This document shows positions 41,125 to 63,744 of a stretch of 64,000 nucleotides of DNA, piece by piece. Position 1 is the first letter of the stretch, and every line of letters starts with the position of its first letter. A model generated the notes under the pieces. It saw nothing but the letters and a program-made list of their open reading frames with translations, was not told the origin of the DNA and made no database searches. The stretch comes from Streptomyces sp. QL37 (GTDB taxonomy: Bacteria; Actinomycetota; Actinomycetes; Streptomycetales; Streptomycetaceae). The position numbers and the translations under genes are program-made. The stretch spans positions 6,427,766 to 6,491,765 of the forward strand of contig NZ_PTJS01000001.1 of the NCBI RefSeq assembly GCF_002941025.1, written 5' to 3'.

Positions 41125-41343
41125 GTGACCAATCCTTTCGATGACGAGTCGGGACGGTTCGTGGCGCTGGTGAACGACGAGGGTCAGTACTCGTTGTGGC
41201 CCGCACATATCGACGTTCCGGGCGGCTGGCGCACCGAGGGGCCGGAAGGGTCGCGTCAGGAGTGTCTCGACGTGATCGAAGGCGCCTGGACCGACATGCG
41301 GCCTGCCGGCCTGGTGCGGGCGATGGGAGCCGACGCCGGATAG
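41125..41343 (+). CDS. mbtH: MbtH-family protein
   Basis: 72-aa activator of NRPS adenylation domains. It has the complete family signature: NPFDDESGRFVALVN, then N-D-E-G-Q-Y-S-L-W-P, then VPGGW, and the late Trp in AWTDMRP. GTG at 41125 follows a GGTGGGGGG ribosome-binding site. It lies 403 bases upstream of the first NRPS gene, and its product probably binds one or more of the six A domains. It is the only accessory biosynthetic gene next to the synthetases. Confidence 0.95.
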   Translation: MTNPFDDESGRFVALVNDEGQYSLWPAHIDVPGGWRTEGPEGSRQECLDVIEGAWTDMRPAGLVRAMGADAG

Positions 41344-41746
41344 GGCGGCGGACAGGCGGCTGAGGGCGCTTCACCTGCTCCCTGGGCCGAGCGGCTTGTC
41401 GGCGCTTCGACCTGATCGATTTCGTTCCCATTCGAGCGAAATCGATCAGGTTTGATCAGAGGCTGATAGGCCTTGCTCGCACATGCTCATTTCGCCTTCA
41501 TGTGGCGTTCATAAATTATCGATGGGTTGCCTTGCGGGGCTCCCTCGATGTGCCGACGAAAAGCTTCCTCCCGCTGAGCTGTGATGCCCCGTGGGAGATC
41601 TCGGCCGCGCCCGATTCCGTGGGTGCGGCGATGGCCCTCTTCGCGTGTGCCGGACCCTGCTTCAGCGGTCGGTGCACTGGCGTGGTCGGTTTTACCCGGC
41701 CCTTCTTCACCGTCCCCGAATACTCTCCCCAAAGGTGTGGACCGGC
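41344..41746. other. Intergenic region between mbtH and NRPS gene 1
   Basis: 403 bases without a gene. It contains a strong stem-loop (41410-41451). An AT-rich patch at 41505-41520 includes TAAATT, a possible -10 with TTTCGC 16 bases upstream. A GC-rich leader runs to the ATG at 41747. This suggests that NRPS gene 1 has its own promoter or an attenuated one. Confidence 0.5.
41410..41451 (+). promoter_or_regulatory. 15-bp stem-loop between mbtH and NRPS gene 1
   Basis: Perfect inverted repeat of 15 bases (41410-41424 and 41437-41451) around a 12-base loop, followed by TTTGATC. The stem is unusually AT-rich and includes ATCGAT on both arms. It could be a terminator or attenuator after mbtH, or a large operator. 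Confidence 0.6.
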
Positions 41747-59200: not shown

Positions 59201-62200
59201 GCCGCCCGCCGCGCACCGCCCACGAGGAGATCCTCGCCGGGCTGTTCGCCGATGTGCTGGGCGTGGACCGCGTCGGTGTCGACGACAGCTTCTTCGCCCT
59301 GGGCGGCCACTCCCTGCTCGCCACCCGCCTCGTCGGCCGCGTCCGCACCGCCCTCGTGCCGCAGGAACGCCCCGACGCACTCCCGCTGTCCTACGCGCAG
59401 CAGCGCCTGTGGTTCCTCCACCGCCTCGAAGGCCCCTCGGCCACCTACAACATCCCCTTCGCCCTGCGCATCGACGGACCGCTCGACGCGGAGGCACTGC
59501 GCCTGGCCCTCCGCGACGTCATCACCCGGCACGCCGCCCTGCGCACCGTCTTCCCGGAGTACGACAGCCGACCGCGCCAGCACATCACCGCGCCGGACGA
59601 CGTCCGCCTCCCGTTCGCCGTCGAAGCCGTCGACGAGCAAGGACTGTCCGACCGGATCAGGGCAGCCGCGGCCGCACCGATCGACATCGAGCACCGCCTC
59701 CCTCTGCGGGCGACCCTGCTGCGCCCGGCCGAGGACTCCCACGTCCTGGTCCTCGTGATCCACCACATCGCCGCCGACGGCTCGTCCCTGGCAACCCTCG
59801 CCCGCGACCTCGGCTCCGCCTACCGCGCGCGCATCCGTGCCGAGGTGCCGGGGTGGGCCGAACTCCCCGTCGACTACGCCGACCACACGCTCTGGCAGCG
59901 CCGTCTGCTGGGCGACGAGCACGACCCCGAGAGCCTCGTGGCACGGCAACTTGCCCACTGGAAAGACGCGTTGAAAGGGCTGCCGGAGATGGTCGCCCTG
60001 CCCTGGGACCGACCGCGCCCTGCCACACCCCGGCACGCCGGCGCCACCCACGACTTCGCACTCGGCACCACCACCGCCAGGCGCGTCGCGAGCCTCGCCC
60101 GCAGCAGCGGATGCAGCGTCTTCATGGTGCTCCAGGCCGCCCTCTCGACCGTCCTCTCCCGGCACGGCGCCGGCCACGACATCCCGCTCGGCACGGCCGT
60201 CGCCGGACGCACCGACGAGGCGGCGTCGGACCTCGTCGGCTTCTTCGTCAACACACTCGTGCTGCGCACGGACCTGACGGGCGACCCCACGTTCCTCGAA
60301 CTCCTGCACCGAGTGAAGGAGTTCGACCTCTCCGCCTACGCGCATCAGGACGTCCCGTTCGAGCGCCTCGTGGAACTGCTCAACCCCGCCCGCTCGCAGA
60401 ACCACCACCCGCTGTTCCAGACCATGCTCATCCTCCAGAACCACACCCCGGCCGCCCCCGTGGACCTGCCCGGCCTCACCACCAGTGGTGTGCCGGCCGC
60501 CCCCGGGGTCAGCAAGTTCGACCTGTCGTTCACCTTCACCGAGACGTACGACGACGGCGGCACGCCCAGCGGCATGCGCGCCGCCGTCGACTACGCGACG
60601 GAGCTTTTCGACGCCGCCACGGTCCGCGACCTCGCCGCACGGCTCGTCCTGCTGCTCGACTCCGTGACCGCCGACCCCGACCGCCCCCTGAGCACGTACG
60701 AGGTGCTGACCCCCGCCGAGCGCTCCCGGCTCGTCGCCTGGGGGACCGGGCCCGTCGAGAACCTGCCGGAGTCGACCGTCCCCGCGCTCTTCGAGCAGTG
60801 GGCCCGGCGCACCCCGGACGCCCCGGCGGTCCGCGACGCCGGCACCACCCTCACCTACGGCGAGCTCGACGCCCGCGCCGACGCCGTCGCCCACCACCTC
60901 GCGGCGCGGGGCATCGGCCCCGAGGACCGGGTGGCGGTCGCCCTGCCCCGCACCCACGACCTCGTCGTGACCCTGCTCGCCATCCTCAAGGCCGGGGCGG
61001 CATACGTGCCGCTCGACCCCGACTACCCGGCCCCGCGCCTGTCGTACATGCTCGACGACGCCCGGCCGCGCCTCCTCCTCACCACGCCCGCCATCCGCCG
61101 CCGCCTCCCGGACTCCCCGGTGCCCTGCCTGTACACCGGCGACCTGGAGAGCGGCACGCCGACGTCGGCGCACACCGGCCCCGCCCCGGCCCTGCTCCCG
61201 GCGCACCCGGCGTACGTCATCTACACCTCCGGCTCCACCGGGCGCCCCAAGGGCGTCGTGGTCACCCACCGGGGCGCCGGCGCCATGGCCAGGACCCAGA
61301 GCGAGCGGCTGCGCGTCGCCCCGGGCAGCCGGGTGCTGCACCTGGCCTCCGTCAGCTTCGACGCCGCGTTCTGGGAGCTCTGCATGGGGCTGCTCTCCGG
61401 GGCCTGCCTGGAGATCGACGAACGGGAAGCCCTGCTGCCCGGGCCCACCCTCGCCGCCCGGGTCCGCGAGCGGGGCGTCACCCACCTCACCCTGCCGCCC
61501 GCCGCACTGGCGGTCATGCCGCCCGGTTCGCTGCCCGCCGGGACGACGATGGTCCTCGCCGGAGAGGCATGCCCGCCGGCCCTGGCGCGCACCTGGGCGC
61601 GGGACCGGTTCCTCGTCAACGCCTACGGCCCGACCGAGACCACCGTGTGCGCGACCATGAGCACCTTCCAGCACGCGGACGGGCCGCTCGCCCCCGACCG
61701 CACCGTCTCCATCGGCGTCCCCGTCAACGGCACCCGCGTCCACGTCCTGGACGACAGGCTGGCCCCCGTGCCGCCCGGCGTCGTCGGTGAACTGTACGTC
61801 TCGGGCGAGGGAGTGGCCCGTGGGTACCACGGCCGGGCAGCCCTGACCGCGTCCCGCTTCGTGGCCGACCCGTCCGACCGGGCGGGGGGCCGCATGTACC
61901 GCACCGGTGACCTGGTGCGCTGGACGGCCGACGGGGAGCTCGTCTACGTCTCCCGCGTCGACGACCAGGTCAAACTGCGCGGGTTCCGCATCGAGCTGGG
62001 TGAGATCGAGGCCGCGCTCACCGCCCTGCCCGGCGTCGCGGCGGCCTGTGCCGTCGTCCGGGAGGACCGGCCCGGCGACCGGCGCCTGGTCGCCTACACC
62101 GTGCCCGCGGACGGCGCGGACGGCCCGGACGACGCGGGGGTACGCGCGCACCTCGCCGCCACCCTGCCCGACCACATGGTCCCGGCGGCCCACGTACGGC

Positions 62201-63744
62201 TCGACGCCCTGCCCGTCACCCCCAACGGCAAGACCGACCGGCGCGCCCTGCCCGCACCCGACCACGCCGTCACGGCGGGCGGCCGTGCACCGGGCACCGC
62301 CCGCGAACGCGCCCTGTGCGAGGCCTTCGCGGAGACACTCGGCGTACCCGAGGTCGGTGTCACGGACGACTTCTTCGCCCTCGGCGGCCACTCGCTGCTC
62401 GCCGTGACCCTCGCCCAGCGGATCGGGGAACGCTGCGGCCGTCGCCCCTCCCTGCGCGCCCTGTTCGCGGCGCCGACCGTCGAAGGCGTGGCCCGTCTCC
62501 TGGAGAGCGAGGCGGGGGAGGAGTCCCAGGCGGGCCCGGTCGCACCGGACCTCGCCGCCGAGGTCCGTCTGGCGCCGGACATCACCGGCACGCGGCGGAG
62601 CGGCACGGTCCCGGGCCGGAGGCTCGACCGCCCTTCCGCGCGCCCGCTGCTGACCGGCGCCTCCGGCTTCCTCGGCGCGTTCCTCCTGCGGGACCTCATC
62701 GAGACCACCGACGGCCCGGTCGACTGCCTCGTGCGCGCCGAGGACGAGCAGCGCGCCGCCCACCGGCTGCGGGCCAACCTGGAGCGCTACGGCCTGTGGC
62801 GTCCCCGGTACGCGGACCTGATCGTCCCCGTCCCGGGGGACCTGGCTGCCCCCGGCCTCGGTCTGTCAGCCGAGGACCGGGCCGCCCTGGCCCGCCGCCT
62901 CGGCCCGGTCGTCCACAACGGCGCACGCGTCAACTTCGCCGCCGCTTACGGTGATCTTCGCGCCCCCAACGTCGCGGGCACCGAGGAACTGCTGCGTCTG
63001 CTCGCCGACTCCGCGTCACCCGGGATGCATTACGTCTCGACCACGAGCGTCTTCGCCCCGGTGGCCGGCCCGCATCCCGCCGCCGTCACGGAGTCGACCC
63101 CGACGGGACCGGCGTCCGACCTGCCCGACGGATACGCGCAGAGCAAGTGGGTCGCCGAGCAGCTCATCGGCCTGGCCCGCGAACGCGGGCTGCCGGTGAC
63201 CGTCTACCGGCCCGGCCGCATCAGCGGCGACACCACCACCGGAGCCTGCCAGGAACGCGACCTGCTCTGGCAGCTCGTCAAGGGGTGCCTCCAGGCGGGC
63301 GCGGTGCCGGACCTGCCGCACGGGTCGACCGACTGGGTGCCCGTGGACCACGTCAGCGCGGCCGTGGTGGCGCTCTCCGCGACCGGCCGGACGGGGGCCG
63401 AGACCTACCACCTCACCAACCCGGACGCACCGGGTCTGGACCGCGTCTTCGAAGCGGCCGCCCGCCTGGGCCACGAGCTGCACACGGTTCCCGCGCCGGA
63501 CTGGCAGGCCCGCGTCGCGGCGCAGCACGACAACGCGGCTCAACTGTTCCTGGGCGACGCGGGACGGACGAGGCACGAGGCGATCGACCACCGCGACTTC
63601 GACTCCAGCCGGACGGCAAAGGCCGCGGCGGCACTGGGCGTCCACCTGCCCCTCCTGACGGACGACACCCTGACGCGTTACCTGACCTACTTCCAGGAAA
63701 CGGGTTTCCTGCCCACTCCGCGGGGGGTGCGGGCGACGGCGTAG
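56278..63744 (+). CDS. Non-ribosomal peptide synthetase, two modules with terminal reductase: C-A-T-C-A-T-R
   Basis: 2488-aa synthetase. C5 is of the DCL type ([21 protein letters not shown] at 145), matching the E domain that ends the previous protein. A5 has FDASTFE at 666, eye-read code D-A-F-F-A-S-V-T-F. T5 has Ser1012 but is truncated after helix 2. C6 ([10 protein letters not shown] from 1037, HHIAADG) leads to A6 (FDAAFWE at 1694) with code D-A-W-T-V-A-A-V-C, which matches Phe. T6 Ser2039. The terminal thioester-reductase domain has TGASGFLG near 2126, Thr in YVSTTS (2252) and catalytic Tyr2286/Lys2290 in YAQSK. The chain should leave as phenylalaninal, or phenylalaninol after a second reduction. 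GTG 56278 overlaps the previous stop. A strong hairpin follows. Confidence 0.95.

Follow-up and report, generated by a model that had tools for sequence, protein, structure and literature searches.

The window analysed here is a stretch of 64,000 nucleotides of the Streptomyces sp. QL37 genome (bases 6427766-6491765 of contig C1; the genome comprises 8.78 Mb in 5 contigs), and our subject is a nonribosomal peptide synthetase (NRPS) line encoded in it by three genes lying head to tail on the plus strand: an MbtH-like gene, NRPS1 and NRPS2. We give a probability of roughly 0.7 to the reading that these genes belong to a widespread three-gene Streptomyces family of peptide-aldehyde synthetases, most likely that of flavopeptin, and that a deletion in the fifth carrier domain, T5, probably stalls the line in this genome. 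The genes and domains are as follows (C, condensation; A, adenylation, with its pocket code; T, carrier; E, epimerase; R, reductase).

41125-41343, +: MbtH-like gene, 72 aa, from the sequence and orthologue regions
41591-56281 (open frame), +: NRPS1, (C-A-T)x4 then E; the true start is probably the ATG at 41747, judging from the sequence and orthologue N-termini
41789-43123, +: C1, starter-type condensation domain
43244-44719, +: A1, DAFFAGVTF, Ile/Val-like; limits approximate
44777-44968, +: T1, profile match
45017-46459, +: C2
46544-48001, +: A2, DAWQLGLID, Gln; limits approximate
48065-48256, +: T2, profile match
48314-49708, +: C3
49811-51277, +: A3, DAFFCGVTF, Ile/Val-like; limits estimated from the core motif
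51311-51502, +: T3, profile match
51560-52903, +: C4
52982-54448, +: A4, DAWQLGLID, Gln
54512-54694, +: T4, of the GGDS type found before E domains, from sequence and profile match
54773-56185, +: E, epimerase domain, with a motif of ten residues
56278-63744, +: NRPS2, C-A-T-C-A-T-R, 2488 aa
56296-57630, +: C5, aligns with C domains directly after E; D-donor type expected
57688-59163, +: A5, DAFFAGVTF, Ile/Val-like; limits estimated from the core motif
59233-59355, +: T5, shortened, 99 nt fewer than in relatives
59377-60732, +: C6, resembles C2-C4
60790-62232, +: A6, DAWTVAAVC, Phe
62311-62502, +: T6, profile match
62647-63711, +: R, terminal thioester reductase, from TIGR01746 and alignment to solved structures

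The GTG start of NRPS2 overlaps the stop of NRPS1, and none of the three genes contains a TTA codon. The coordinates and domain order that the first-pass annotation had given for the three-gene line agree with the sequence, and the profile matches confirm its succession of MbtH, four modules plus an E domain, then two modules ending in a reductase. That annotation had also reported no thioesterase, and no thioesterase family is found among the Pfam matches of the NRPS1 and NRPS2 proteins.

The shortened carrier domain T5

T5 matches the PP-binding profile over positions 3-45 of 67 with 38.9 bits, and the other five T domains match it from position 2 to positions 65-67 with 56.9-69.9 bits. The Ser motif of T5 is kept, after which the protein runs directly into the T5-C6 linker, helices 3 and 4 having been removed by a 99-base in-frame deletion. 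This deletion is private to the window copy: about 33 additional residues are present in T5 at all 24 scanned loci, in all 10 orthologue regions and in all 119 other listed proteins, which together with the window protein are the best 120 of 7944 matches. The three sets overlap (for example in HB132, papulosa and ATexAB-D23) and their counts are not additive. Among the 119 proteins, 115 were judged by spacing and the other four were read directly; the 24 loci derive from 28 reductase-bearing frames, of which L051, L039 and L035 (33-44% identity) were left unread and L029 was excluded for its split frames. All 119 listed homologues have the complete domain, which rules out that a short T5 is characteristic of the family. 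As a separate observation, the homologue P0063 has GGQS in place of GGHS at the phosphopantetheine site of T5, with its length intact.

At the DNA level the window has 129 bases across the gap, against 228 in eight relatives and 225 in the two most distant. In four of eight relatives checked, the repeat CCGCCCT stands at both gap ends exactly 99 bases apart, a spacing that fits a deletion by slippage. AlphaFold returned a poor model of the window T5 (mean pLDDT 64.4, pTM 0.34) in which the last two helices are absent, whereas the T5 of S. atroolivaceus was modelled with the four helices of a peptidyl carrier protein (mean pLDDT 83.0, pTM 0.67). We regard this contrast between predicted models as supporting evidence only.

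The remainder of the line looks undecayed. At NRPS2 columns that are invariant in all other sequences, the window copy carries no substitution of its own (the 120 sequences have a median of 1 and a mean of 1.6), a value of zero that is shared by six of its seven closest relatives among the proteins listed, and no private deletion of at least 4 aa was found in NRPS1 among 10 sequences. Because these two checks show no other decay in NRPS1 and NRPS2, the T5 deletion is either recent or an assembly error, and general decay of the cluster is not supported by them.

If the gap were an artefact of sequencing or assembly, the strain would have a complete flavopeptin-type cluster and could make the product. 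Several observations weigh in this direction or against a real deletion. Undecayed NRPS1 and NRPS2 are also expected of a working gene, and hence of an assembly error; the gap is seen in one assembly, and its joint lies in GC-rich sequence, which in some relatives is flanked on each side by the short repeat. In the other four of the eight relatives the repeat was not found at the 99-base spacing, and the AlphaFold alignments were shallow (16-17 rows), with a 72-residue chain that itself tends to lower the score. However, the length of the gap is divisible by three and the frame is intact, as would be the case with one random error in three, and no other T domain of the line is similarly shortened in the same assembly. 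An artefact seems to us rather unlikely, though it deserves to be taken seriously. A collapse of the assembly between modules was rejected, since the joint falls within T5 and every other T domain of the line has its full length.

A six-module line had been predicted at first, and the order of six modules stands; they are not, however, six intact modules, since T5 is 99 nt short and one of the six sets of C, A and T domains is thereby incomplete. Residue 5 could hardly be held on half a T5, and the line would stall before module 6. With T5 shortened, the product is probably not made, and we infer that the assembly line of this genome, as assembled, is probably non-functional.

A product could still form if the half T5 carried residue 5 after all, or if module 5 were bypassed to give a pentapeptide aldehyde. 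The kept frame, the remaining Ser motif and the lack of further decay would suit either case. A working half T5 is at odds with the predicted model, which lacks the last two helices, and a bypass is at odds with the condensation domains: C5, not C6, is of the type that partners an E domain, and C6 is 53-60% identical to C2-C4 compared with 28% to C5, so that T4 is unlikely to pass the D-ended chain straight on to C6. We consider both routes very improbable. Were one of them real, the strain would make a peptide aldehyde of its own by means of a two-helix carrier or a naturally skipped module, and, with the four-module sibling described below, the family would form a natural series of line lengths of 4, 5 and 6. 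Under the reading that we prefer, a deletion that stalls the line at T5, the strain would make an unpromising starting point for product hunting. A module count rates the window copy as complete though one of its carrier domains is half gone, which calls for caution.

Domain chemistry and the predicted product

Pocket codes were read by motif anchoring, save for position 299 of A6 in several genomes, position 278 of A6 in G170 and of A2 in G158, A4 of G158, and A5 of G171 (278 = F), which were read by eye. Over the six modules the codes run in the order X-Gln-X-Gln-X-Phe, where X is Ile/Val-like. The assignments are drawn from neighbouring codes: DAWQFGLID and DAWQTGLID are listed as Gln codes in Table 2 of PMC2866473, and DAFFLGVTF is paired with Ile/Val in Table 1 of PMC2533009. 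In the window A6, position 299 is V, supported by the protein sequence; the code is DAWTVAAVC, as first reported, and it is the one predicted as a Phe code in lunaemycin (PMC9866976).

Where BLAST aligned the first condensation domain with other C domains of the window, it shows 25-27% identity to them. Among solved structures it comes closest to the starter C domains of RzmA (7c1h/7c1k) and of CDA synthetase I (4jn3), EntF being a weaker match, and its starter type is assigned by similarity alone. When R148 of RzmA is changed to smaller residues, the preferred acyl group becomes C8 or C10 instead of C2; the acyl donor is CoA for RzmA and a carrier protein for CDA (PMC7804268). The residue of C1 aligned with R148 is Gly, from which, by analogy, a medium or long acyl cap would be expected on residue 1. 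PvdL, TycB, TycA and GrsA have E domains that match the one here. C5 aligns with the C domain found directly after E in PvdL and in bacitracin synthase 3, so residue 4 is expected to be D-configured.

The R domain, which follows T6 and closes NRPS2, matches TIGR01746 with 318-324 bits (cut-off 213). Its closest solved relatives over the full length are the MxaA reductase domain (4u7w) and the 8v1x reductase, both from other assembly lines, and in alignment to solved reductases its motifs read STTS and GYAQSKW, which bears out the intact Thr/Tyr/Lys triad noted at first. The GYxx(S/T)K pattern is present in 120 of 120 sequences including the window, and the strict Thr-motif pattern in 58 of 120.

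Taken together, the domains make acyl-X-Gln-X-D-Gln-X-phenylalaninal, or the corresponding alcohol, a well-supported prediction for the product of the family design. Residue 1 would receive its fatty acyl cap from C1, and the chain X-Gln-X-(D-Gln)-X-Phe (X being Ile/Val-like) would be built up by the modules. Reductive release by the R domain with NAD(P)H would yield a phenylalaninal-ended lipohexapeptide or alcohol. The N-capped, Phe-ending hexapeptide aldehyde or alcohol proposed by the first-pass annotation is thus upheld as the design of the family (C1, codes, E with C5, and R), but it is probably not made from this genome as assembled.

Family distribution and the flavopeptin question

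The family is common. One scan of named genomes gave at least 66 loci, among them those of S. atroolivaceus, S. sp. HB132, S. clavifer, [Kitasatospora] papulosa, S. sp. SirexAA-E, S. bikiniensis and S. noursei. In a genus sample the reductase had a match of at least 61% identity in 15 of 198 other genomes, and these 15 are included in the 22 of 391 other genomes in which it passes E 1e-120. The 119 other proteins among the best 120 matches are 74-92% identical to the window protein with 99-100% query coverage; S. pratensis contributes two of them (83 and 84% identity). This distribution rules out a rare or novel cluster.

The minimal gene set had been thought unusual; it proves to be the norm. 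The same three genes are present in all 10 orthologue regions, with MbtH directly upstream of NRPS1 (67-96% identity) in each. Crude gene calling in regions of 40 kb, which take in roughly 5-12 kb upstream and 10-12 kb downstream, gave no other gene common to all. The three-gene unit is accordingly the rule of the family and not an oddity of the window. The six-module order is kept in nine of the 10 regions, the remaining one, G158, having four modules. Across the nine six-module regions the pocket codes are identical save for single-position differences: A2 is DAWQLGLVD in papulosa, A4 is DAWQAGLID in two regions, and G023 has DAFH forms of A1, A3 and A5 and DAWQMGLID in A2. The family is a common, self-contained source of peptide aldehydes of the protease-inhibitor type, and its conserved X-Gln-X-Gln-X-Phe code eases the search for products across many strains.

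Flavopeptins end in phenylalaninal, and their producer is close to S. flavogriseus ATCC 33331. That strain is now S. pratensis (PMC4239341), whose protein P0023 shares 98% identity with that of papulosa. The genome of papulosa has a single thioester reductase above the cut-off, as does the window genome; of the eight others included in this comparison, six have two. The flavopeptins are described as acyl-capped peptide aldehydes of an R-domain NRPS from Streptomyces sp. NRRL F-6652 (PMC8009326, PMC4071589, PMC10548850), and the domains of the window synthetase fit this description, its shortened T5 being a difference. The homologues in S. pratensis, and the link through papulosa with its one thioester reductase, make it likely, though not proved, that the gene family is that of flavopeptin.

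The genes might instead belong to a separate family of peptide aldehydes or peptide alcohols. This is favoured by the known capacity of R domains to reduce by 2 or 4 electrons, giving alcohols too (PMC8949500), and by a comparison with flavopeptin that was one of description, not of synthetase sequence, codes or structure. The exact codes DAFFAGVTF, DAFFCGVTF and DAWQLGLID had no match in the literature searched, which held neighbouring codes only, and the synthetase is known here from its genes, its substrates and product being deduced from its anatomy. These points count against our reading. The acyl cap and the release by an R domain agree with the published descriptions of flavopeptin (PMC10548850, PMC4071589), however, and S. 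pratensis has homologues, while in papulosa the thioester reductase of this family is the sole one above the cut-off, so we judge a separate family to be unlikely. The window adds a further member of a widespread and already known type of synthetase, probably the flavopeptin type.

The four-module sibling and further observations

The G158 locus (contig C1, ~370-386 kb; L103 and L104) encodes X-Gln-E and X-Phe-R with MbtH just upstream. Like the window it has a starter-type C1, an X-Gln pair followed by E and an X-Phe pair followed by R, with a reductase 63% identical to that of the window; unlike the window it is without one X-Gln module pair, and the ten residues of its E motif read differently. 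The best matches of its domains in the window are C2 to C4 (71%), A2 to A4 (62%), C3 to C5 (70%) and A4 to A6 (68%). From these matches the six-module line looks like a four-module line with one X-Gln pair added. A strict one-to-one map is disfavoured by C4 of G158, which is 65% identical to the window C4 and 63% to C6, and by its A3, which is 63% identical to the window A3 and 56% to A5. The two forms look like natural growth of a line by one module pair, which could be useful to NRPS engineers.

In S. fulvorobeus NBRC 15897 (L029:21169-28731) the orthologous NRPS2 is split by three frame changes into four blocks, and the NRPS1 of the same locus is a single block of 82% identity; judging from the frames, this may be a second broken copy of NRPS2 or the result of sequencing errors. 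A further group of reductase-ended frames, mostly of ~2200 aa and with 43-49% identity to the window R domain, occurs in 18 of 199 genomes and represents another R-domain family.

Upstream of the three genes, a gene for a 931-aa protein (window 35965-38760, 2 kb upstream of MbtH) is found at three loci with 91-93% identity, those of the window genome, HB132 and papulosa, which suggests a shared insertion site. Several upstream genes are common to two loci. The same genome has a further large run of NRPS domains at bases 6300535-6337794 of contig C1, ~90-130 kb before the window. Within the window, the proteins encoded at 27263-28750 and 30688-31398 resemble, by eye, those of the Ada and AlkB alkylation-repair genes.

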